NCBI GenBank assembly: GCA_013180625.2
Contig: SNVD02005101.1
Location: 124,001-188,000, forward strand
Origin: Boswellia sacra
Taxonomy: Eukaryota > Streptophyta > Magnoliopsida > Sapindales > Burseraceae
Length of the DNA: 64,000 nucleotides
Direction of reading: 5' to 3'
In this document: one piece after another, positions 8,170-28,053 of the stretch
Layout of the letters: each line of letters begins with the position of its first letter
Position numbering within the stretch: position 1 is the first letter of the stretch
The notes under the pieces: generated by a model
What the model was told of the DNA's origin: nothing
Databases searched by the model: none
Seen by the model: only the letters and a program-made list of their open reading frames with translations
Program-made: the position numbers and the translations under genes

Positions 8170-8281
8170 CTAGTGAGATAATTAGAACCTTCCTTCTTTG
8201 ACACCAAACATTGATCAATCCGAGAAGTGATTCGCCTGCGAACTACGCCATTAGATTTATGTGAGAGCTTTTGCGGGTTGT
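8170..8281 (-). pseudogene. Downstream part of a split plant gene exon 1
   Basis: Read on the minus strand this piece is open and encodes a basic stretch including VVRRRITSRID, then ends at CTCACTAG followed by GTGAGATGG, a good splice donor (AG|GTGAGA) at 8170/8169. It continues in frame from the piece at 19471-19537 once the target-site duplication is counted once; the Athila element sits between them. The arrangement 'LQWGN-KKRL-RCVRVK ... RRRITSRI' reminds me of the N-terminus of a family of small plant proteins of unknown function. I cannot name the gene. No later exon is visible at lower coordinates. Confidence 0.5.
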
Positions 8282-9653
8282 TGATGAACACTTAAATATG
8301 TATGTTTAATAAGAGCTTAGTTCATCATATTGCATTAATAGTGTCATTAAATTCCTCAACTTAAGCATATTTATAGTCTTTGCATCTTTGGAATTAACTT
8401 CCTCTTAATTTTGGTTTTGTTACAGGTTCGGTAAAATAGGCATAACTCTCTATTTGTATATCAAAATGGTGCAAATCTTAATGTTTTGGAAAGCTAATTA
8501 AATTATCTACAAGATTGTATTTCACAAGCATCATCAAATTCAGGCTCTTAATAGACCAAAAATGGGCTTGAAGTGAACCCATCTGCAGATTCGGCCCAGC
8601 CTAACCATGCCTCAGTATTTTGACCATATCTCTCAGAATACGTATCCAAATCATATGAATCAAGATGTTCTAGAAATCTGAGAGAGATATCTATGACTTT
8701 CATGAAGACATGTGATTAAAATTCTCAAAAATTCAATGTCAAAATCAGTGGTCAAAGTCGGTTCACCTAATTATCTCAATTGTCAAAGTTGGTGCATCTA
8801 ATATTTGACAATTATTCCTTTATAATTTGACAAGTTTGCCTCTGAATGTATCTATAAATAGAGTTGCCTTGTGACCCATTGGGGACATCTTGGCCTTAGC
8901 TGGGATCTTGTATTGTGTATCTCTTGTTATTCTCTCTTGTGTCTTGTTAATGAATTTCCTTTTTCTTGTAATTAGTTTTCTTTCTCTTATAATATCTTTC
9001 TAATTTCTCTCTTGCTAAGGTGAAAGGGTGAAACCCTTGATATGAGAGTAAGGATTCTCTAACCCTTAATGTGTGCTTAATAATCATAATCTTATGTTCT
9101 TTATATGATTTATATTTATTTTCTTAGTCAATCTTGACACCACTCGTAAAGTGGAGGTCTTGATCCATTGTAGACAATCCTTGGCACATCAAATGCTTGG
9201 ATCCTTTCTAGATGTCATATGGTTCTTCCTTACCGACATGAATCTAGTTAGGAACCTTGATTTGTTGTAGACATATAGAGATTGGCACGTTGGATGCTTG
9301 AACCCATTTACAAGAAGTGGTATAAATATTGGTAACGAAGCAAATATAATTCATATAACTAAAACGGGTTGTTTATCCTTATTTGAAATATCAAGGGCGG
9401 ATCCCCTAACCTTAGCTTTCATTGTTATTGTGTTAATTTCTCTTATGTTATTATCATTTATTATTTATGAACTTGCTCTTTTCTTATATTTATTGATATT
9501 ATCTTGCCATCTCCTTGAATCATCCATATCATATTTGCTTACTTATAGTTTGTAGCGCTAAAATTCCCTTCCTCGTGGATCAACCCCGGACTCACCGGGT
9601 TTATTACTTCGACACTCCTATACTTGGGATATAATCCTTTTTCGGATGTGTCA
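8282..9653 (+). repeat. Athila 5' LTR (1372 bp)
   Basis: Starts TGATGAACAC and ends GGATGTGTCA (TG...CA). It matches 18100-19470 nearly along its whole length. A TATA-like CTATAAATAGAG lies near 8850, so transcription probably starts shortly after it. The LTR contains a spurious 85-codon hydrophobic ORF (9298-9555). Confidence 0.95.
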
Positions 9654-9659
9654 AGTTTT

Positions 9660-9677
9660 TGGCGCCGTTACGGGGGA
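9660..9677 (+). other. Primer binding site, tRNA-Asp type
   Basis: TGGCGCCGTTACGGGGG lies seven bases after the LTR end. It is complementary to the 3' end of plant tRNA-Asp with a minor mismatch, which is the primer typical of Athila elements. Confidence 0.85.
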
Positions 9678-9789
9678 AGGTAAAAATTGGCGTGCAAAAT
9701 TGTAAGTATTCTCTTCTCTCATTTTAGATCTTAATTTTTTACTTTGTTGTGTGTTCATCTTTTCTTCTCTTTTCTTCTCTCTTTCTTGC

Positions 9790-11500
9790 ATGAAAATTTG
9801 GTCACCAACATCTAGTGATAGACTTGTTAGAAAAACATCATCTTCCTTAGAAAACATGGCCGACAATCTAGTGGAAAGGTTCACGGATGAAGGGGACAAC
9901 CGTTCCCAACAAAATGATCAAAACCAACGAAGAACCCTCAAAGATTACGTGAATCCGGTAAGGACTAGTGCACCATCTTGTGTAGTTTCTCCACAAAATT
10001 TAATCCATTTCAATTTCAAGCCAAGTTTTGTTCAACTTCTACCCACCTTTCATGGCCTTGATGTGGAGAACCCATATTCACGCTTAAAACTGTTTGAAGA
10101 GGTATGTAATTCCTACACTGACCCAAATTGTAGTATAAACACCATTAGATTAAAGCTTTTTCCTTTTTCTTTAAAAGATAAAGCTAGAACATGGCTACAA
10201 AATTTGAGGTCGAATTCCATCAGTTCATGGATGAGATGAAACAACAATTTTTGAAAAAAATTTTTCCTACCCATAGAACAAATTCTCTTAAAAGACAAAT
10301 TTCTGATTTCTCTAAAAAACAAGGGAAACCCTTTACCAATGTTGGGATAGGTATAAAGAACTACTTAATACCTGTCCTCACCATGGGTTTGAAACTTGGA
10401 GAATAGTTGCACATTTCTATGAAGGGTTAACACCTCAAGATAGGCAACTAGTGGAATTAATGTGTAATGGAGAATTTAAAGAAAAAGACCCTGAGAAAGC
10501 ACTTGACTACATAGATTCCTTGGTAGAAAAGGCACAAAATTGGGACACTGCTGGCACCTATGAGGTACCAAGCAAGGCCCCAACCTCGACATCCAATAGA
10601 GGCATTTACAACCTTAGGAAGACCATGACCTTCAAGCTAAATATGCATCCCTAGCTAGAAAAGTCGAGGCTTTAGAAATGAAAAAGAATGGTCAATTGAA
10701 TTCTATTCAAGAAAATGTCTGTAACATTTGTAATGACAATGACCATTCTACTGATGATTGCCCAACTTTGCTTGCCTTTAGGGAATGTTTCCATGAGCAA
10801 GCCAATGCCTTGAACACTTTCAAAAGGCCAAATCACAACCCATACTCTCAAACCTATAATCCTGGTTGGAGAAATCATCCAAATTTTAGTTGGAAAAATG
10901 ATAATCATGCACAATCTTCACAAGTCCCCTTTCAAACACAACAAAATTTTCAAAATTCTCATGATCATGCATATGCTCCTCCTCCTAGGAATGACTTTGA
11001 AGAAACATTGCATTCATTCATTACAAAGCAAGAGACTTTCAATAGTCAAACTGCACAAACATTAGCAAATTTGTCAGAAACTCTTGCAAAATTTGCATCT
11101 ACATTTAGCATCCAAGAGAAGGGAAAATTTCCTTCTCAAACATTGCAAAACCCCAAAGATCAATCTAACTCAAATGTAGGGAGTTCAAATAACCATTATT
11201 TTGACCAAGCCAAGTCAGTCATGACCCTTCGCAATGGTAAGATTGTTGAAAAACATATTCCTAACCCTTGTAAGAAAGAAGAAGAATCAATCTCTAAAGG
11301 GCAGGAAGAGGTTGCCAAACCAACACCTCGCGAAGAGAAAACCAAATCCTCATATGTGCCTCCATTTCCTCAAGCATTAGCTACACAAAAGAAGCCAACT
11401 CACAATTCTGAAATCTTTAAAATTTTCAAACAGGTAAAGGTCAACATTCCCTTGCTTGATGTGATGAAACAGGTACCTTTTTATGCAAAATTTTTGAAAG
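9790..11500 (+). pseudogene. Athila gag polyprotein, frameshifted
   Basis: The capsid-type retrotransposon gag domain is recognisable in three frames in turn. Frame 1 starts at ATG 9790 (an upstream in-frame ATG is at 9751) and runs through a 'LLPTFHGLDVENPY' block and a 'LFPFSLKDKARTWLQNL' block. A shift near 10230 moves to frame 3 (MKQQFLKKIFPTHRTNSLKR), one near 10335 to frame 2 (VELMCNGEFKEKDPEKALDY), and one near 10615 back to frame 1. A CCHC zinc knuckle (C-x2-C-x4-H-x4-C) sits at about 10720-10761. Downstream is a low-complexity linker rich in N, Q and S. It would package element RNA in virus-like particles. Three frameshifts make it non-functional. Confidence 0.9.
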
Positions 11501-11589
11501 ACTTATGCACTGTAAAAAGGAAATTGAATGTGAAAAGGAAGGCCTTTCTAGCCGAGCAAGTAAGTGCTATTCTTCAAAACAATAATACA

Positions 11590-12030
11590 CTGAAATATAA
11601 GGATCCAGGTTGTCCTACAATTTCATGTGTTATTGGAGACCATAAAATTGAACAAGCTTTACTTGATCTTGGTGCTAGTGTGAATTTGCTTCCATATTCG
11701 GTTTTTCAGAAACTCAATCTAGGTGAGTTAAAACTGACTTCTGTGACTCTTTTGCTTGCTGATAGATCGATCAAAGTACCAAGAGGAATAGTAAAAGATG
11801 TGTTAGTTCAAGTCGATAAATTCATTTATCCAGTGGATTTTATCGTCTTGGACACACAACCAGTGGAAGTATGTAATTCAATTCCTGTCATTTTAGGGCG
11901 TCCATTTCTAGCTACTTCTAATGCTTTGATTAATTGTAGGAATGGAGTCATGAAGTTATCATTTGGGAACATGATATTGGAACTTAATGTTTTTAATATG
12001 TGCAAACAACCAAATGAAGAAGAAGATGAA
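11590..12030 (+). pseudogene. Athila aspartic protease domain
   Basis: In frame 1, continuous with the gag end. The active-site region reads LLDLGASVNLLP (near 11660-11700), with DLGA instead of the usual DTGA. That variant occurs in other Athila-type elements, as far as I recall, so it may not be a lesion. Later blocks 'LADRSIKVPRGIVKDVLVQV' and 'VILGRPFLATSNALINC' complete a retropepsin fold. It would cleave the Gag-Pol polyprotein. This segment itself has no stop; it is listed as pseudogene because the polyprotein is broken on both sides. Confidence 0.88.
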
Positions 12031-12249
12031 ATTGATGAGGCCAATGTGATTGAATCTATTATGGAAGATCACATCCAAAAAGGGAGTTCTTCCGACCCTT
12101 TGGAAACTTGTTTGGTGAATTCATTAGAATTAAGTATGGAACTACAGTCTGATCTTTCTGATATATGTTCTTTATTGGATTGTGCACAGGTGATGGAAAA
12201 ATGCTCAAAACCAATATTCGAAGAATTGGGGCAAATGAATGAAAGCAAG

Positions 12250-13800
12250 GAAGAGGAAGCTCCCAAGTTAGAATTGAAGCCCTTACCTGAAGGACTGAAA
12301 TATGCATATCTTGGGGAGAATCAAACATATCCGGTGGTAATTTCTTCATCCCTCACATGCGAGCAACAAGGTAAGTTGATAGAAGTGCTTAAAAGGCATA
12401 AAAATGCAATTGGGTGGACTTTTAAAGATATAAAAGGCATTAACCCCTTAATTTGCACACATAGAATACATTTAGAGGAAAATGCCAAAACATCTCAACA
12501 ACCTCAAAGGAGATTAAATCCACACATGAAAGAGGTCACTAGGGTTGAAGTTCTCAAACTACTTGATATGGAAATTATCTATCCTATTTCTGATAGTAAG
12601 TGGGTAATCCCTACACAAGTAGTACCTAAAAAATCTGGAATTACAGTTGTTAAAAATGAAAAGGGGGAATCATTGCCAACTCATGTCTCTCTAGTTGGAG
12701 GATGTGCATTGATTATAGAAAATTAAATGCTGTCCCTAGAAAAGACCATTTTCCCTTACCTTTCCTTGACCAAATTCTTGAAAGAGTAGTAGGAAACCCC
12801 TACTGCTGCTTTCTTGATGGATACTCAGGCTATTATCAAATTCCCATTGCACTCGAAGACTAAGAAAAGACCACATTCATGTGCCCCTTCGGCACTTTTG
12901 CATTTAGGAGAATGCCTTTTGGACTTTGTAATGCCCCAGCTACTTTTCAAAGATGCATGTTAAACATTTTCAGTGATATGGTTGAGCATTGTTTAGAGGT
13001 TTTTATGGATGATTTAACTGTCTTTGGAAACTATTTTGACAATTGTCTTGAAAACTTAGAAAAAGTCCTAAAAAGGTGTGTAGAAAAAGGTCTTATTTTG
13101 AATTGAGAAAAATGTCATTATATGGTCACTTCAGGAATTGTCTTAGGTCATGTAGTGTCTTCTAAAGGAATTGAAGTTGACAAAGCAAAAGTGAAATTAA
13201 TTTCCTATTTGCCTCCACCAAAAACAGTTAAAGAGGTTTGTTCATTCTTAGGGCATGCTGGATTTTATAGGAGGTTCATAAGAAATTTCAGTGCTAGATC
13301 TAAACCTCTTTGTAACCTCTTAATAAAAGATACTTCCTTTGAATGGACTCAAGAATGTCAAAATGCCTTTGATACACTAATTGGGCTTTTAACAACTGCT
13401 CCAATTATGCAATCTTCTGATTGGTCCTTGCCTTTTGAATTGATGTGTGATGTAAGCGACTATGCAGTTGGTGCTGTCTTATGACAAAGAAAAGAAGGTA
13501 AGCCTTATGTGATATACTATGCAAGTAGGACTTTAAATGATGCACAAATGAATTACACAACAACTGAAAAAGAACTACTTGTAGTAGTATTTGCATTGGA
13601 TAAATTTCGATCTTATTTAATTGGCTCTCCAACAATTGTTTACACTGACCATGCAGCTGTTAGATATTTAATGTCTAAACAGGATGCAAAACCTAGATTG
13701 ATACGGTGGATCTTATTGCTCCAAGAATTCAACATCACAATAAAGGATAAGAAAGGAGCTGAAAATGTCGTTACTGATCATCTTTCAAGACTAACAACAG
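12250..13800 (+). pseudogene. Athila reverse transcriptase and RNase H, broken
   Basis: RT starts in frame 1 and shifts to frame 3 near 12685, just before an 'RMCIDYRKLNA' block. In frame 3 it continues through FRRMPFGLCNAPATFQRCM to the catalytic VFMDDL (near 13005) and on to 'FLGHAGFYRRFIRNFS'. RNase H follows, with [10 protein letters not shown] and [11 protein letters not shown] blocks. Three in-frame stops are seen: TAA at 12861 where a CAA codon is expected, TGA at 13104 where TGG is expected, and TGA at 13482. Two of these fit C-to-T transition decay of methylated DNA. It would copy element RNA to cDNA in the cytoplasm; this copy cannot. Confidence 0.92.
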
Positions 13801-15153
13801 AGACATTAATTGAAACTTCACCTATCAATGATTCTTTTCCTGATGAATTTTTATTTTCCGTTGCTACTGTACCTTGGTTTGCTAACATTGTAAATTTTCT
13901 TGCAACAGGAAAAATGCCACCTCATTGGAATGCTCAAGACAAAAGAAAATTTTTAATTGAGGTGAAAAATTTTTATTGGGATGACCCATATCTGTTCAAA
14001 TATTATCCAGACCAAATAATAAGAAGATGCATACCCGACAATGAGGTAAGTAGTGTCATTAACTTTTGTCATTCTGAAGCATGTGGACATTTTTCATCTA
14101 GAAAAACAACTGCTAAAATCTTGCAATGTGGATTTTATTGGCCCACTTTATTTAAAGATGCACATGCATTTTGCAAAACGTGTGAAAATTGTCAAAAATT
14201 GGGATCTATTTCAAAAAGAAACATGATGCCGTTGAATCCCATTCTTGTCGTTGAAATCTTTGACTGTTGGGGTATTGATTTTATGGGACCCTTTCCACCG
14301 TCATTTGTTTTGTGTACATCCTTGTTGCAGTAGACTATGTTTCAAAATGGGTCGAGGCAATTCCATGTCGAAACAATGATCACAAAACAGTTGTCAAATT
14401 CTTGAAGGAGAATATCTTGAGTAGATTTGGAATTCCTCGAGCCATTATTAGTGATGGGGTACACATTTTTGTAATAAACCATTTGAAACCTTAATGAAGA
14501 AATATGGAATAACCCATAAAATTTCTACACCTTATCACACACAAACAAGTGGACAAGTTGAATTAGCTAATAGGGAGATAAAACAGATCTTAGAAAAAAC
14601 GGTTAACCCAAATCGTAAAGATTGGTCTTTAAGACTTAGTGATGCACTTTGGGCTTACCGAACTACTTTTAAAACATCATTGGGAATGTCTCCTTATAGA
14701 CTAGTTTATGGAAAACCTTGTCACTTGCCTGTGGAAATTGAGCATAAAGCTTATTGGGCCATTAAAACATTCAACACAAATTTAAATGATGCTTGCAAGT
14801 TACGTAAACTCCAACTGAGTGAACTTGAAGAAATCAGGAATGAGGCTAATGAAAATTCTAAAATATACAAAGAAAAAATGAAGGTTTTTCATGACAAATC
14901 CATTGTTAGAAAATCTTTTGAACCTTCACAAATAGTTCTTTTGTACGATTCAAGATTGCATTTGTTTCCTGGTAAACTTTGGTCTCGTTGGACTGGGCCT
15001 TTCATTGTTAAAAATGTTTTCCCTCATGGAGCAGTTGAAATCGAGAACCCAAAGAATGGTAATGTGTTTAAAGTTAATGGACAACGGTTAAAACCATTCT
15101 TTGAAAATTTTGATCAAAATGAAGAGTCCATTACTTTAGTCGATCCTTTTTAA
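13801..15153 (+). pseudogene. Athila integrase, two frameshifts
   Basis: An HHCC zinc-binding N-terminus (H...H...CKTCENC) lies at about 14068-14200. The core has Asp in GIDFMGP (about 14275), Asp in IISDG (about 14450) and Glu in QVELANRE (codon 14560-14562), so the DDE triad is present. The reading frame shifts near 14310 and near 14460. The last 219 codons (14494-15153) are open and include '[24 protein letters not shown]' and a C-terminal beta-rich part. There is no chromodomain, in line with Athila. It would insert cDNA into the host genome. Confidence 0.92.
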
Positions 15154-15277
15154 GGATTGATCTTTCCCGGTCAAGTAGCGGATACAGTACTTCGTGAATT
15201 TTAAAGTCGGTTTTTCAGTTCCCTAAAAACTGTTGCTCACCTTGCATTCATTTTCCTTTATTTTCTCGTATTTTCAC

Positions 15278-15658
15278 ATGGACACCATTCTCTCAAATCT
15301 GCACAAACATTTTCCCTTTCTTCCTCCAAATGATTTGCTTAAAATTTACAAAGCTTGCGCAGAAAGAGTAAGGATGTTGATGCGTAAGGGTGTGTCTGTC
15401 GAAGTAAGATGGTTAATTGAAGCCAATGTTCGATTTTCTTATGAATTTTCAGATAATCTTGTTTCTCACATGCCAGGTATGGGAAAAAGCTCTTACGCCA
15501 AAAAACGAAGAGCGAAAAGGTTACAAGTTTGTCCCAAATGTGCAAGATGGACTTGTAACCAGTGTTGCCGCTCCTTGGGATATTTGTCTAATAATCGAGA
15601 GGATAAACTACAGTTCATCAAGAATGGACTGAGTATGGAGTCTTTGGATGATATCTGA
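15278..15658 (+). CDS. Cysteine-rich basic protein resembling carlavirus nucleic-acid-binding proteins
   Basis: Intact 126-codon ORF placed 124 bp after integrase. I chose ATG 15278; an in-frame ATG at 15233 would add 15 hydrophobic residues. Residues 1-65 are mixed and probably helical. Residues 69-82 are GKSSYAKKRRAKRL, a strongly basic patch. Cysteines follow at 85, 88, 93, 96 and 97 (VCPKCARWTCNQCC), a likely zinc-binding knuckle. Basic patch, spacing, position of the knuckle and overall size are those of the 11-16 kDa cysteine-rich proteins of carlaviruses and relatives (Pfam Viral_NABP), known to bind nucleic acid, suppress RNA silencing and, in one case, act as a transcription factor. 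There is no membrane segment or signal peptide, so it is not the env-like protein usual here. Function in this element is inferred. An independently evolved zinc-knuckle protein is the alternative. Confidence 0.65.
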   Translation: MDTILSNLHKHFPFLPPNDLLKIYKACAERVRMLMRKGVSVEVRWLIEANVRFSYEFSDNLVSHMPGMGKSSYAKKRRAKRLQVCPKCARWTCNQCCRSLGYLSNNREDKLQFIKNGLSMESLDDI

Positions 15659-15662
15659 ATGA

Positions 15663-15679
15663 CTCTTGAGACGCATTCT
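15663..15679 (+). repeat. 17-bp direct repeat flanking the LOG segment
   Basis: CTCTTGAGACGCATTCT occurs here, just after the cysteine-rich ORF, and again exactly at 17040-17056, after the LOG-like gene. An exact 17-bp match is not expected by chance in this AT-rich DNA. It may mark template switching when the gene was acquired, or a local duplication. Confidence 0.7.
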
Positions 15680-16085
15680 TGCGGACTTGTGCAGCGTAAA
15701 ATTTTTAATTTGTGGACACAATTACGAGATAAGCAGGAACGCTATAGTCTTGGGAATCTGACTCAAAACGACCCTGTTTGTTAGTTTATAAGAAAACTGG
15801 ATGGGAAGCATATCCCCAACTCATAGAAGGTGTTTAAGCCGTTTCTGGACGTAAAACCAGAGGAAGATGTGAGCCACAGTCACAACTACCTGTACATATG
15901 CATGTGTGCCATTATTTTTTATTTTTAATGTCTCATAGCTGTCATTTTTGAATTTGTATCTTTTGTTTGACTTATGATGCCTCATTTTATCATCTTTTTT
16001 TGAGTTTTTATGCATTATTGTCGACTTTTTCAACAAACAACCGAGTTACCTATATAGATGTAATCATTAGCATACCTTTTTGCAC

Positions 16086-16095
16086 TCCATAAATA
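16086..16095 (+). promoter_or_regulatory. Candidate TATA box upstream of the LOG-like gene
   Basis: CCATAAATAC lies about 55 bases before the LOG-like ATG at 16145. A start site some 30 bases downstream would leave a short leader. It could give the LOG-like gene its own transcript, independent of the LTR. It is a sequence match only; splicing from the genomic RNA is an alternative. Confidence 0.35.
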
Positions 16096-16144
16096 CCACA
16101 TCTCTTGTTCTCTTCTTCACACATAGTTAGAGAGTTGTATAAAC

Positions 16145-16792
16145 ATGGAGGGAACTTCAAAACGTCGAATCTAAAAGATATGTGTATTCTGTGGATCTCG
16201 ACCGGGTAAAAGTGAAGAGTTTGTCAAGGCAGCAAATTATCTTGGTAGACTACTGGCTGAAAGAAAGAGTCATGTGGTTTATAAGGGAGGTAGCCTCGGG
16301 TTAATGGGTTGTGTGTCAAGAGCTGCACGTGTAGGAGGTAGTCAAGTTTTAGGAGTTAAAAAAGCTTTGACTATAGAAAGCATTGTTGGAAAAACGATTG
16401 GGCATGAGTTACAAGTCTCCTCCATGCATGAACGCATGGCACATATGCTCATCAATTCAGATGCTTTTATTGCTTTACCAGGTGGCTTTGGTACTCTCGA
16501 AGAAATTTTTCAAATTGCCTCTTAGGCCCAACTAAATCTCTATAAAAAACCTATAGGTTTGTTGAATGTTAACAATTTCTTTGATCCTTTAATAAGTTTT
16601 GTTGATGCAGCTGTGGAACAAAATTTTATCCCCCATTTGGCGAGACAGATCCTTGTTTCTGCTACTTCTGCTGGTGAATTACTTGACAAATTACAATCAG
16701 TTGAGTATAAACCTGACCCAGCTAGTACTCAAATTAATTGGTCAGGAGGGCAAAACAAAAAATGCAAATTGGATCTGAATCTCCGTTTGTAA
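16145..16792 (+). pseudogene. LOG: LOG-family cytokinin-activating enzyme, captured, two in-frame stops
   Basis: LOG enzymes (cytokinin riboside 5'-monophosphate phosphoribohydrolases, Rossmann-like 'lysine decarboxylase' fold) release active cytokinin bases from nucleotides in the cytosol and nucleus. The frame runs from ATG 16145 to TAA 16790-16792, 215 codons, the usual LOG length. Residues include ICVFCGSRPGKSEEF near the start, GGSLGLMG, MHER (Arg97) and PGGFGTLEE (112-120, with Glu120); Arg97 and Glu120 match the catalytic pair of the family. The C-terminal part 'KPIGLLNVNNFFDPLISFVD' also matches. Stops are TAA at codon 10 (16172) and TAG at codon 127 (16523), the latter where family members have Trp, so TGG to TAG. 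There is no frameshift. Plant LOG genes have several introns; this copy has none, which points to capture through RNA. It lies between integrase and the polypurine tract, thus inside the element. This copy should be non-functional unless stops are read through. Confidence 0.93.
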
Positions 16793-18088
16793 TTTTTTTT
16801 CTTTTCCTGTCTTTTATTTTTAGCATTTTATAAGTCTTTCAGGTCATCCCTCTTGAATAATAGAAGCTTCAGGTAATGTCTCCTATACTTTATCTCTCTA
16901 CATTTAAACATTGAGGATAATGTTTCATTTGGTTGGGGGGAAAGGATATTAGACATGAGTATGTTTTGAATTTTCTTTTTCTTGAAAAAAAAAGCGAGTT
17001 AGTAATTAGATTCAGAGTGCGGCGTAAGGAGTTCAAATCCTCTTGAGACGCATTCTGGGTCAGGAATGGTAGAGTAAGGAGGACCAGTTTGAACTTTTGA
17101 AACCCATTCTAACCAATTTGTCATTTTATTTTGATTTTGTGAACTCATTTTAGCTAACTTGATATTATTTAGTCTTGATTTTTGAATTTTATAACAAGGA
17201 GGTCTTATTCATTTCACTTTGAATTATTCAAATCTATGAACTCTCACAACATTATCATTTAATAAACTGTGTGCTTATGTATTTGTTAAGCAAGTATTCA
17301 TGAACCTTTCTTCACACACACACATACCTTGATGCATGATTGTGGGTGGCAAAATGAAATGTTGCAATATTTGAGTTCTTTTATTTTGTTTAGGATAACA
17401 ACAAAAGGAAGGGGAAAGTAAAAAAAAAAAATGAAAGCAAAAAAAAAGAGGTAAAAAAAAAGAGAGCAATTGTGGATAAGTTTGGTCTCGTAGCCTCCTT
17501 AATTCGAGCAATTAAGCCCGAGGGGTGTCTCAACACCTAATACCCTAAGACCAACTGGTTTGGGAGCTATTGGCCCAAAGCTTGCTACATGGATTAAGGA
17601 GAAAGCTCAATGGGATTGAACATTGCACTATCCACAAGTTTCTAAGCAAAAATAAAGCATCGACAACCCGAGTCGTTAAGCTCGAAAGAGTGTCTTAACA
17701 CCTAATGCCCTAAGGCCAACTAGTCTGGGAGTCATTAGCCTAAGGCTCGCTACATGGGTTAAAGATGCATTCTTTCATCAATATATATATATATATATAT
17801 AAAATAAATGAATGCCCCCTGCCTACAGTTGTTAGCCTTAACAAATATTAGAACCGATATGGCTTCTTTCTAATAAGCCCCATAGTCATGTATCGACTGG
17901 GCACAAAAAGAAGGTTTATTGAAATCTTGACTGAAGAGAACATGAGTCATTAAAAAAAAAAATCGGTTGAGAGTTTGTTTATTTGGATAAAATCAAGGAG
18001 AGTGCAATAATGACCACCTTGGATGTAAAATTCTATAAATCACTTCTAAATAATAACGCTTTAATTGCTAGGGACTAGCAATAAGCTA
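16793..18088 (+). other. Athila 3' non-coding region with duplication and microsatellites
   Basis: No ORF of note. It contains a G-rich tract GGTTGGGGGGAAAGG near 16931-16945 that looks like a second polypurine tract, the second copy of the 17-bp repeat (17040-17056), A-rich low-complexity DNA (17417-17465), a 164-bp-spaced duplication (17505-17770) and a TA run (17781-17802). Confidence 0.7.
17505..17770 (+). repeat. Tandem duplication, 164-bp spacing, in the Athila 3' region
   Basis: Two copies of about 95 bp begin near 17505 and 17669. Shared blocks include TCT(C/T)AACACCTAAT, CCCTAAG(A/G)CCAACT, TGGGAG, and GCT(T/C)GCTACATGG. They are about 80 percent alike by eye. Such repeats before the 3' LTR are common in Athila and Ogre/Tat elements. 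Confidence 0.75.
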
Positions 18089-18099
18089 GTTGGGGGGTG
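18089..18099 (+). other. Athila polypurine tract
   Basis: GTTGGGGGGTG directly precedes the TG start of the 3' LTR. It primes plus-strand DNA synthesis. Confidence 0.85.
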
Positions 18100-19470
18100 T
18101 GATGAACACTTAAATATGTATATTTAATAAGAGCTTAGCTCATCATATTGCATTAATAGTGTCATTAAATTCCTCAACTTAAGCATATTTGTAGTCTTTG
18201 CATCTTTGGAATTAACTTTCTCTTAATTTTGGTTTTGTTATAGGTTTGGTAAAATAGGCATAACTCTCAATTTATAGGTCAAAATGATACAAAGCTTAAT
18301 GTTTTGGAAAGCTAATTAAATTATCTACAAGATTGTATTTCACAAGAATCATCAAATTCGAGCTCTTAGTGGACCAAAAATGGGCTTGAAGTGAACCTAT
18401 CTGTAGATTCGGCCCAGCCTGACCATGCCTCAGTATTTTGACCATATCTCTCAGAATACGTATCCAAATTGTATGAATCAAGATGTTCTAGAAATATGAG
18501 AGAGATATCTACGACTTTCATGAAGACATATGATTAAAATTCTCAAAAATTCAATATCAAAATCAGTGGTCAAAGTTGGTTCACCTAATTACCTCAATTG
18601 TCAAAGTTGGTGCATCTAATATTTGACAATTATTCCTTTGTAATTTTATAAGTTTGCCCCTGAATGTATCTATAAATAGAGGTGCCTTGTGACCCATTGG
18701 GAGCATCTTAGCCTTAGCTGGGATCTTGTATTGTGTATCTCTTGTTATTCTCTCTTGTGTGTTATTAATGAATTTCCTTTTTCTTGTAATTAGTTTTCTT
18801 TCTCTATAATGTCTTTCTAATTTCTCTCTTGCTAAGGTGAAAGGGTGAAACCCTTGATATGAGAGTAAGGATTCTCTAACCCTTAATGTGTGCTTAATAA
18901 TCATAATCTTATGTTGTTTATATGATTTATATTTATTTTCTTAGTCAATCTTGACACCATTCGTAAAGTGGAGGTCTTGATCCATTATAGACAATCCTTG
19001 GCACATCAAATGCTTGGATCCTTTCTAGATGTCGTATGCTTCTTCATTATCGACATAAATCTAGTTAGGAACCTTGATTTGTTGTAGACATATGGAGATT
19101 GGCACATTGGATGCTTGAACTCATTTACAAGAACTGGTATAAATATTGGTAACGAAGCAAATATAATTCATATAACTAAAACGGGTTATTTATCCTTATT
19201 TGAAATATCAATGGCGGATCCCCTAACCTTAGCTTTCATTATTATTGTATTAATTTCTCTTATGTTATTATCATTTATTGTTTATGAACTTGCTCTTTTC
19301 TTATATTTGTTGATATTATCTTTTCATCTCCTTGAATCATCCATATCATATTTGCTTACTTATAGTTTGTAGCGCTAAAATTTCCTTCCTCGTGGATCGA
19401 CCCCGGACTCACCGAGTTTATTACTTCGACACTCCTATACTTGGGAGACAATCCTTTTTCGGATGTGTCA
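18100..19470 (+). repeat. Athila 3' LTR (1371 bp)
   Basis: Direct copy of 8282-9653, TG...CA, with scattered substitutions (a few percent) and hardly any length change. It ends GGATGTGTCA at 19470. It carries the element's transcript end signals; I did not locate a precise poly(A) site. Confidence 0.95.
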
Positions 19471-19537
19471 GTTCTTGACTCTCACACATCTGAAGCCTCT
19501 TCTTGTTCCCCCACTGTAAAAAGAATTCTGGCTCCAT
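19471..19537 (-). pseudogene. Start of a split plant gene exon 1
   Basis: On the minus strand ATG at 19537-19535 opens MEPEFFLQWGNKKRL. After that the frame meets stops, but dropping one base near 19497 (a CTTCAGATG context) moves to RCVRVKN and runs in frame into the piece at 8170-8281 across the Athila insertion point, counting the target duplication once. So exon 1 carries both a 1-bp insertion and an 11-kb retrotransposon. A 5' leader would lie at higher coordinates. The gene family is not one I can name with confidence. Confidence 0.5.
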
Positions 19538-20593: not shown

Positions 20594-20822
20594 TATAACA
20601 CCCTTAGGCCAATCCCACATCGGCAAGACACGAGGGAGTGCTGGGTATATAAGTGGGAGCATGCCTTGGTATCATAAGGGCCCCTTGGGCTCGAGGACCC
20701 GTTTTGGGTGCAGTCTAGTACAGCCTCTGATAGGCCAGTAGCTAGATTGGTGGCTCGAGAACAAAACCGTCTGGCCCAGTGGCCCAAAGCGGACAATATC
20801 CCTGGTGGGCCGGCCTGTGATA
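20594..20822 (+). repeat. TRIM left LTR (229 bp)
   Basis: Begins TATAACACCCTTAGGCC (expected TGTAACACCC, with one G-to-A change) and ends CTGTGATA (expected TGACA). It is about 40 bp longer than the right LTR owing to an extra block near 20720-20765. Confidence 0.8.
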
Positions 20823-20911
20823 GTTATGGTATCATAGCAGCCCCGTATGTCCTCTGTGCGATGGTGGGGCAAACAATAGTGAGGAAGCTGAGTCCTAAAA
20901 GGAGGGGTGAT

Positions 20912-21099
20912 TGTAACACCCTTAGGCCAATCCTACATCGGTAAGACACGGGGGAGATGTTGGGTCTATAAGTGGGAGCATGCTTTGGTCTCTTGAGGGC
21001 CCCTTGGGCTCGACGACGCATTTTGGGTGCAGTTTAGTGCAGTCTGTGTGGCCTAGTGGACCAAAGCGGACAATATCCTCGGTAGGTCGGGCTGTGACA
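20912..21099 (+). repeat. TRIM right LTR (188 bp)
   Basis: Begins TGTAACACCCTTAGGCC and ends GGGCTGTGACA. Shared blocks with the left LTR: CCACATCGG-type motif, TATAAGTGGGAGCATGC, GGGCCCCTTGGGCTCGA, and AAAGCGGACAATATCC. Confidence 0.85.
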
Positions 21100-22617
21100 A
21101 TTAAGTTCACATTCTCATTTCACAAGCTCAAAGTCAAGTCGTCCAGTCATTACAACCACATCACTTAATTGCTATAATACTAACATTTAGCTAAATCACA
21201 TTACGAACATATCACATAAAGAATAATAACAATTTTATTGTGTCCTCAGAACGGATTTAGCTTACTTACCTGATCAGTTTTGCCTCTTGATTATGATTTG
21301 CACCTAGAAATAATCAAATCTCTCATGGATTAGCAACCATTTCAACCAACCAATAACTACGCTAACAATTCACTAGTATACACATATGGGTTGGACAATT
21401 ATAGCAAGAGGGTACGTACTCCAATTATCACGAAATTTCATGGGACTCAAGAAAACACAAATATAATATGCCATGAATTTTTTGAGTCAAAGTAAGGCCA
21501 TGTACCCTTTGAAAAACCTTAATTTCATTCACACAGAAAATCAGTCTATGGACCTCTCAACTGAGCAGTGCAACTTTGAAGAATTTTATAAAATTATACA
21601 ATAATCAATTCTCTACCAATCTTTTCAGTCTAAAACTACACAAATATGAAAGTCATTTAGCCAAAAATCACAACATTCTAAAGAGTTTATGCCAGTCAAA
21701 ATTATTTTATACAGTTTACTCCATTCTGAAAGTAATAATTTTCAGTTTAAAGTGCCCAACTTTGAAAATTCATATCAATTCATATAGAGCTCCAAATTCA
21801 TAAAAAATTAAGTCTACCAGGAAACGTGTTTAAGGGTTTTCATACCAAAAATCATGAATTTTTATGACGGTATGGCCCCTCAATTCAAGTTTATTCCCCC
21901 TGCTTTGTTTTAAAACAAGGGAAGTTAGAATTTCATTCCAGAACTTCAAAAATTCACCTACTTTGAATTTTTAAGTGATTCAAAATTCCACATAACCCTT
22001 GACATGTCTAATTTCAACTATAAAAAATTTAAAACCTGAAGTTGAACCTATAATTTATAGGATTTTTCGGAATAACCCTTATTCAGCAAAGAGACTCTGC
22101 AGGAATTTCACTTAAACATGTTTCCTAACTTCCCAAACATCATCCCTTCTCCTTCAATATACCATAACATATATAATATCATGTTTTCACACAAATTTTA
22201 GAATGCACATAACACAATCATTCTATAATTTATAACATAATCACATTAATTTCCTGTAAAAATAGTGGAACCATGCAAGGAAATGGGAGGAGACGTTGAT
22301 TTCTACCTTTAGTTTGTTTCTACCTTTCTTCCTCTTGCTTAATTTGTTGGCAACAATTAAGGAGAAAGAGATGAGGGCTAGTTGCAGGGATAGGATCAAA
22401 ATGAATACATTTCTCTAGAATTCTCTCTTTTAGACTTATCCAAATATGCAAAATTTCAGCCTAACCCTTTAAGCTTTCAAGTGTTGCTAATTAGCCCTTC
22501 CATCTCATTTAATTGCATCTCACTCCATATATGTATACACATAATTCATAATGCTAGTAATACACATTTTACAATATAATTGTAAGTTAAACTTACTTAA
22601 AAATTTGGAGTGTCACA
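21100..22617 (-). repeat. Truncated 3' LTR of the long-LTR gypsy element
   Basis: The 5' edge (right end on plus) reads GGAGTGTCACA next to the purine tract. Only about 1.5 kb of a presumed 3.7 kb LTR is left; the rest is missing where the TRIM begins. It matches 32661-33937, for instance in a block CCATGCAAGGAAATGGGAGG (22275) and in CTTCCTCTTGCTTAATTTGT (22328). Confidence 0.8.
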
Positions 22618-26668: not shown

Positions 26669-28053
26669 TCGTTTGAGAATTGGGAAGGGACCTTCGTATT
26701 TTCACACCAACCCTTTGTGCACTTTGCGAAGTGATTTGAATTGTTAGGGTAGGAGCTTGACGAGTACCAAGTCCCCCTCTTGGAATGCGAGGCGCCGTCT
26801 CTTCATATCCGCCCACTTTTTCATCCGTTTAGCGGCCTTGTCCAAGCATGCTCTTGTAATATCAGCTTGCTCGTGCCATTCCTTTGCAAGCTTGTAGGCC
26901 GCGGGATTCTTTCCTCCATAGCTTGAGGCTATGGCATGTGGAGTTATTGGTTGTTGTCCGGTCAAAATCTCGAAAGGACTCTTACCCGTTGCCTCACTCC
27001 TTTGGAGATTATGTGAGAATTAGGCAACGTCTAGCAACTTTGCCTAATCATGTTGATGAGCACTCACATAATGCCTCAAGTATAACTCAAGCAAGGCATT
27101 GATGTGCTCGGTATGCCTATCGGTTTGGGGATGGAAGCTTGTAGAAAAGCTCAAGTCGGTCCCCAACATTTTGAAGAGCTCTCCCTAAAAACGACCAGTG
27201 AAGCGAGGGTCACGATCACTTACAATATTTTATGGAACTCCCCATAGCTTCACTATGAGTTTGAGGAATGCTTGAGTGGCTTCGTCCGCAGTGCAATCCA
27301 TAGAGACGGGTATGAAGGTGGCATATTTGCTAAACCGATCAATTACCACCATTTTGGCAAGGCCACGATGAAGTCCATCGAGACGCTTTGCCATAGCCTT
27401 TCTGCAATGGGTAGGGGCTCAAGCAACCTCGCTGGACGTTGGTGCTCAACCTTATCTTGTTGGCACATAAGACAAGTCCTTACATAGCCCTTCACGTCTT
27501 CCCGCATTTGAGGCCAATAATAAGAATCTTGTAAGAGTGCAAGGGTTTGTGCCATTCTTGGGTGACCAGCCCACTTGGAATCATGGCACTCCTTGATGAT
27601 CTCATTCTGCAAGTTCCCATGTCTAAGCACAAAGAGACGATTCTCAATTGTGAGGAGTAGGCCTTCATCATGCCAAAAACATCGTGTCTTCCCCTCACTT
27701 GCCAATTTTAAGAGGTTCTTGGCTATGGGATCGTGCTCTATGCCTTGTTTGATTCGGTCGATGAGCACACTTTGTGGATAACTTACACTCAAGGTGGCAA
27801 GGTCTGCTTTATGACTTAAGGCATCGGCCATAACATCGGCCTTACTCGCTTTGTACTCTAGCGAGTCTTGGAGTTGTTTCTCTAACTCTGCAAGTTTGGG
27901 TGGCATGAGGTAAGGCGCCATGGCTGGAGGCTTGGCATCAAGTTCCACCTCGATTTGGTGATTGACTTCCTGTCGTGAAGGCAACTTCTTTGGGAACTCT
28001 CGAGGTTTCACATCCTTATATTTCTCAAGGATGGCTTTAATTTTACTTGGCAT
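26669..28053 (-). pseudogene. Integrase with RT and RNase H deleted
   Basis: Minus-strand frame from 28053 starts in the protease-RT linker, reads KLAELEKQLQDS and then jumps (near 27862) straight to LEYKASKADVMADALSHK, the end of RNase H. The whole RT palm, including its YxDD-type site, and most of RNase H are absent, with the frame kept. Integrase follows: HHCC zinc finger (H...H...CLMCQQ), Asp in SMDFIVALP, and after a frameshift near 27343 a second Asp in VSDRDPRF and a Q(T)D-H-E type third region. Stops interrupt the core near 27190 and 27045. The open piece 26744-26965 is the integrase C-terminal part. Confidence 0.88.

Follow-up and report, generated by a model that had tools for sequence, protein, structure and literature searches.

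An Athila-like family of retrotransposons in Boswellia sacra carries two accessory genes between its integrase and its 3' LTR, NABP first and then LOG, and we consider it on balance probable that the two form a module serving roles in silencing and in nucleotide chemistry. NABP resembles, in sequence, the cysteine-rich nucleic-acid-binding proteins (NABPs) of betaflexiviruses and would be a homologue of virus silencing suppressors. Some of its viral relatives shield viruses from RNA silencing, and by analogy it would blunt the silencing directed at the element. The element LOG would be an enzyme acting on a nucleotide 5'-monophosphate, derived from a captured LOG whose base pocket was later remodelled, and in cells that support replication of the element it would alter cytokinin or some other nucleotide signal. 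The LOG transcript may start at a TATA box of its own.

The element and its accessory genes

The window, that is, the whole stretch of 64,000 nucleotides that was analysed, contains a Ty3/gypsy, Athila-like element of 11.2 kb, bounded at 8282-19470, with the LOG-like frame inside it. Its features are the following:

8277..8281, unstranded: target site duplication, left copy, GTTGT (read directly)
8282..9653, plus strand: 5' LTR, TG..CA (blastn, ends read directly)
9660..9678, plus strand: primer binding site TGGCGCCGTTACGGGGGAA (read directly)
10678..12726, plus strand: gag-protease frame piece (PF13650 aspartyl protease, 1.9e-5)
13122..14333, plus strand: RNase H and integrase zinc-binding pieces (PF17919, PF17917, PF17921)
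14494..15153, plus strand: integrase C-terminal frame (matches a Rhamnella gene model, 74% over 111 aa)
15278..15826, plus strand: second accessory gene, NABP (PF01623, PF05515)
16087..16095, plus strand: TATA-like box CCATAAATA, candidate internal promoter (58 nt 5' of the LOG start)
16145..16792, plus strand: LOG-derived phosphoribohydrolase frame (PF03641; stops at 16172 and 16523)
16907..16940, plus strand: motif AACATTGAGGATAATGTTTCATTTGGTTGGGGGG (read directly)
18090..18099, plus strand: polypurine tract TTGGGGGGTG, 5' of the 3' LTR (read directly)
18100..19470, plus strand: 3' LTR (blastn, read directly)
19471..19475, unstranded: target site duplication, right copy, GTTCT (one mismatch against GTTGT)

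LTRs, target site duplication, primer binding site and polypurine tract are all present, and protease, RNase H and integrase follow one another in this order. We call the element Athila-like on the basis of its type of primer binding site, its layout and a published parallel; the primer binding site is of the tRNA-Asp type, typical of Athila, and the motif at 16907 resembles an Athila-element motif. The RNase H/integrase zinc-binding region consists of two open frames (13122-13484 and 13509-14333), and the integrase C-terminal frame has no Pfam match at E 0.001. The 5' and 3' LTRs are 94.9% identical over 1391 columns (blastn), with 65 differences in 1371 compared columns; at LTR substitution rates of 1.3e-8 or 7e-9 per site per year, these differences give the element an age of about 1.9 or 3.5 million years. 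LTR pairs of four other copies (L010, L014, L017 and L025) diverge by 1.7 to 3.4%. Elsewhere in the window, a repeat beginning TAACACCCTTAGGCCAATCC is found at 20596-21112, in two copies about 318 bp apart with segments 79-93% alike, and the integrase zinc-binding domain (PF17921) of another retroelement lies on the minus strand at 27343-28053.

A preliminary description of this DNA had reported an intronless LOG-like frame of 215 codons at 16145-16792, located between the integrase and the 3' LTR of a single element, with the main LOG motifs and two stops that mark it as decayed, and all of this was borne out. The frame is supported by translation and by PF03641, it contains PGGFGTLEE as well as the HER-motif Arg, and it is placed within one element between the integrase pieces (13509-15150) and the 3' LTR (18100-19470). 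Its in-frame stops are TAA at 16172 (codon 10) and TAG at 16523 (codon 127), ahead of the terminal stop at 16790, and both open pieces match PF03641 above the curated cut-off (5e-17 and 2e-9). Host plant LOG genes have several introns, and it is possible that the LOG was taken up through a processed transcript. Absent from the preliminary description was the second accessory gene, which lies beside LOG at 15278-15826.

This second gene, NABP, has 182 codons in open copies and is interrupted in the window by stops at 15656 and 15782, before the one at 15824. The window copy matches PF01623 (Carla_C4) at 2.6e-6 and PF05515 (Viral_NABP) at 3.4e-5, both above the curated cut-offs, and two of two open copies likewise match both viral families above cut-off; at E 0.001, Viral_NABP is matched by 37 of 43 NABP relatives and Carla_C4 by 34 of 43. 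The basic run KKRRAKR, putatively of the nuclear-localisation type, is immediately followed by a CxxC-type zinc-finger-like motif, and most columns of the two are at least 90% conserved across 43 protein sequences. According to the accessible part of one report, the carlavirus members of this protein class share a conserved nuclear localisation signal next to a zinc finger, and they may contribute to pathogenicity (PMC10141686). NABP has 336 relatives, and the names among the 120 listed include Xanthoceras, Acer, Populus, Rhamnella and Orobanche; one Rhamnella gene model, which matches the window integrase at 74% over 111 aa, fuses integrase with NABP, and another joins NABP with LOG. The predicted NABP structure is poor (pLDDT 64), and a Foldseek search with this poor model against a viral library listed 22 matches, none below E 0.001, of which 10 were betaflexivirus-type proteins named as silencing-suppressor, nucleic-acid-binding or 15-kDa proteins and 12 either bore no name or were unrelated, among them proteins of phages and giant viruses. 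Two scans for NABP on viral contigs gave 11 and 37 pattern matches, none of which was confirmed.

Copies across the genome

A degenerate codon pattern for GGFGTLEE occurs at 1415 places (686 + 729) in the 638.6-Mb genome, a count in which host LOG genes are either included or missed by the pattern, and its reversed control occurs at none. From the sample of places that were read, we infer that nearly all of these are element copies, and the family probably numbers over a thousand copies in this one genome. The sample comprised 41 motif places in 40 stretches (L009-L048; 20 of up to 10 kb and 20 of 1.8 kb), which were taken from the first motif places listed, mostly on long contigs, with L026 and L027 picked for their deviating motif spelling. 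NABP is found upstream of LOG in 39 of the 41 places, the two without it (L036 and L042) being 1.8-kb stretches, and NABP and LOG matches are present in all five further 3-kb loci (L001-L004 and L006). The preliminary description had pointed to an integrase upstream and an LTR downstream as the flanks of family members, and this was the usual arrangement among 17 main-family stretches with lengths up to 10 kb, a set that excludes L013 (contig end) and L026 and L027 (other lineages): all 17 have gag upstream of LOG, 13 have integrase upstream, and 16 have an LTR downstream.

The four stretches without integrase (L010, L014, L023 and L025) are short variants with gag pieces, NABP and LOG. LTRs are present in these variants and pol was not detected, and they are probably non-autonomous partners. 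By alignment, and with the window copy included, 11 of 48 LOG copies and 5 of 43 NABP copies are open, although the LOG of L026, which the alignment scored as broken, is an open frame of 216 codons. The catalytic Arg is present in 43 of the 48 copies; conservation of PGGFGTLEE in our own copies is biased, since they were picked by that motif. The element family is abundant and largely decayed. Two older LOG-bearing lineages were also observed in the same genome, at L026:4972-6774 and L027:3300-4668. Their LOGs share 64% and 48% identity with the window frame, respectively, and each has NABP sequence upstream.

The LOG clade, its base pocket and selection

By PF03641 and PGGxGTxxE, the element LOG belongs to the LOG family. 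It has 7877 relatives, and the names among the best 120 include Xanthoceras, Diplodiscus, Reevesia, Populus, Melia and Parasponia. We call element-type those LOGs that a tree places in one clade with element copies; 124 of them (the best 120 of the 7877 relatives and four of our own) were compared with 121 host LOGs (the best 120 by likeness to Arabidopsis LOG3, and LOG8), and neither set is a full sample because each was picked by likeness to one query. When two bacterial outgroups were included, 27 element-type LOGs (four of our own and 23 of the best 120, with three long rows dropped) formed one clade (99/99) and 25 host LOGs, 24 of them from the best 120, another (100/96), in a tree whose root may be distorted by long branches. 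Without an outgroup, with 26 of the best 120 element-type and 24 of the best 120 host LOGs, the host LOGs again stood apart (100/100), both trees being built without Xanthoceras rows and without LOG5/LOG7-type host genes. A quick tree of the best 120 and our four held the 124 together at 0.969. Judged from these sequences, the element-type LOGs form a clade separate from the sampled host LOGs and spanning several eudicot families. Three Populus proteins named 'probable ... LOGL10' in databases (P0161, P0182 and P0217) sit in the element clade. From this placement it is likely that element genes were given host-gene names, a warning that some poplar 'LOGL10' entries group with element LOGs and not with host genes.

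The 124 element-type sequences keep the catalytic Arg in 119 and the catalytic Glu in 120. Among the pocket residues (CgLOG numbering), Met96 is kept in 109, His97 in 48 and Trp129 in 122. The Lys100 site, in contrast to the host LOGs, has Ile, Leu or Met in 119 (His in one and Lys in four), and Glu125 is replaced in 121 (by Gln or His in 115) and kept in three, whereas both Lys100 and Glu125 are present in 121 of 121 host LOGs. The loop Glu is Asp or Asn in 102 of the same 124. Our own 48 copies have Met (44) or Ile (4) at the Lys100 site. Met96, His97, Lys100, Glu125 and Trp129 line the proposed prenyl site of CgLOG, and Lys100 its adenine site as well (PMC4979012); the matching Lys-to-Ala change abolishes AMP hydrolysis by CgLOGII (PMC5379747). 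The accessible parts of these two papers hold no description of a change from Lys to Ile, Leu or Met. The adenine/prenyl pocket of cytokinin LOGs is, with few exceptions, not what the element-type LOGs have and, since two base-pocket residues are replaced, cytokinin release by the element LOG is doubtful. The preliminary proposal of a hormone-producing gene carried by the family accordingly stands for the carriage, given the 1415 motif places, and is doubtful for the hormone.

Three Xanthoceras models form the first branch of the element clade and keep both Lys and Glu, which suggests that a host-like LOG was captured and that its pocket changed later; in one of the three, a gag-protease piece of Athila type is also present (56% over 48 aa). 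The solved sequence closest to the element LOG is Arabidopsis LOG3 (At2g37210, 1e-58), and a structure model of the LOG P0126, made without an alignment, was uninformative (pLDDT 43).

The dN/dS comparison that the preliminary description had proposed gave a divided answer, with values near 0.2 between families and no significant constraint on LOG within the main family. Between the L026 family and four open main-family copies, LOG dN/dS is 0.17-0.22 at a dS of 1.1-1.4, near saturation (NG86), and the YN00 estimate, obtained for one of these four pairs, is 0.14; among the four open main-family LOGs, dN/dS is 0.28-0.44 (NG86). LOG looks constrained between families. Within the family, constraint was assessed as an excess of shared synonymous changes in biallelic columns, expressed as an omega-like ratio, on 45 of 48 LOG rows (without L001, L026 and L027) and 42 of 43 NABP rows (without L026). 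It was not significant for LOG (0.82 versus 1.03, Fisher p 0.17; 1.21 for the class seen in two copies), for NABP (0.90 versus 0.99, p 0.24) or for the integrase C-terminal piece (0.63 versus 1.18, p 0.13, 14 copies), and the RNase H/integrase piece was clearly constrained (0.13 versus 1.10, p 1.7e-9). An earlier LOG count gave 0.53 for shared and 0.91 for singleton changes; the recount on biallelic columns is weaker, and we rely on the latter.

As for the candidate promoter, YATAAATR lies within the 170 nt upstream of LOG in 45 of 47 copies; because these copies are related, they do not count as independent. A TATA-like box is also found in the old L027 lineage, and L026 and L021 have none in the alignment. 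Between the window and L027, alignment reaches 82% over a block of 34 nt that surrounds the box (E 5e-5) and 81% over the first 73 nt after NABP, with short pieces only in between.

Alternative readings and comparison with known systems

Several other readings were weighed against a functional module. The element LOG might be a true cytokinin-activating enzyme, with cytokinin driving division and thereby replication in meristem or germ-line precursors; this is favoured by PGGxGTxxE, the Trp of the pocket and the two catalytic residues, nearly always kept among the 124, and by the proximity to Arabidopsis LOG3 and the host-like pocket of the early-branching Xanthoceras LOGs, but the near-universal replacement of Lys100 and Glu125, at positions that line the adenine and prenyl sites of CgLOG and of which the Lys is needed by CgLOGII, makes it unlikely in our judgement, if still a serious candidate. 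NABP and LOG could also be passengers, carried but unneeded, as would fit the lack of significant within-family constraint on either gene and the broken state of most sampled copies. We regard this as decidedly unlikely, given a between-family dN/dS of about 0.2, relatives of both genes in several plant families, and the retention of both genes by short variants in which pol was not detected.

A later nested insertion, or a processed pseudogene, in one Athila copy has in its favour the intronless LOG frame and a 17-bp direct repeat, CTCTTGAGACGCATTCT, at 15663 and 17040, and the preliminary description had allowed for a separate element bounding 15660-17060. The left repeat (15663-15679), however, is NABP coding sequence that is open in other copies, the arrangement recurs in 39 of 41 motif places, and NABP and LOG are joined in the Rhamnella model. 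LOG is neither flanked by a target duplication of its own nor single-copy, and we reject this reading, to which we give practically no weight. One-off capture is likewise rejected, as single-copy status was excluded by the 1415 motif places. A two-gene module serving silencing and nucleotide roles remains our preferred reading. A bolder form of it, which we see as a long shot, is that of a paired counter-defence kit, in which a virus-derived silencing suppressor and a LOG whose pocket was rebuilt so as to remove or modify a host nucleotide signal distinct from classic cytokinin, for example an immune nucleotide, would have been fixed together in the ancestor of elements of several eudicot families. 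With the virus-type partner gene and the changed pocket, the question shifts from hormone production to which substrate the element LOG cleaves. Two ideas become testable: that retrotransposons of plants turn the tools of viruses against RNA silencing, and that LOG enzymes are able to change substrate.

The preliminary description knew of no LTR lineage with LOG cargo, a statement that does not hold: a YgdH domain (LONELY GUY family) occurs in LTR elements of Citrus sinensis, C. clementina and Populus trichocarpa according to the accessible part of PMC9289625, which cites Steinbauerova et al. 2011 for YgdH-bearing LTR elements. Those elements share with the window family the combination of an LTR element and a LOG-family domain, and differ in that the accessible part of PMC9289625 is silent on a companion gene, on genomic copy number and on any change of the pocket in them. 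The LOGs of Populus and those of the window family share one clade. Steinbauerova et al. in 2011 reportedly found two Athila-like elements with similarity to LOGL4. Ty3/gypsy elements of Phalaenopsis with an AlkB m6A demethylase likewise carry an extra enzyme domain as cargo, but the enzyme is unrelated and no viral-type partner is mentioned in the same accessible text (PMC9289625). Cytokinin is not mentioned in the accessible parts of the plant LTR-element reviews and surveys PMC7264820 and PMC6317226, and a carlavirus-type protein in a retrotransposon was found neither in that of PMC6338049 nor in the literature searched, which lacked most subscription journals.

Like plant LOG1, LOG3 and LOG8, the element LOG has PF03641, PGGxGTxxE and the catalytic Arg and Glu; unlike them, element LOGs mostly have Lys100, Glu125 and the loop Glu replaced and form a separate clade. 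Like the cysteine-rich proteins of betaflexiviruses (carlavirus ORF6, trichovirus 15-kDa), NABP combines a basic run with a CxxC-type motif and matches PF01623 and PF05515 above cut-off; unlike them, it is encoded by a retrotransposon, is 182 aa long, and has a conserved C-terminal part beyond the Pfam match. LOG cargo is already known in kind, whereas the NABP partner gene, the separate clade of element LOGs and the changed base pocket look new against the literature searched. The family would be a retrotransposon lineage that acquired an enzyme of plant hormone type together with a protein of RNA-virus type and multiplied them to probably more than a thousand copies in one genome.
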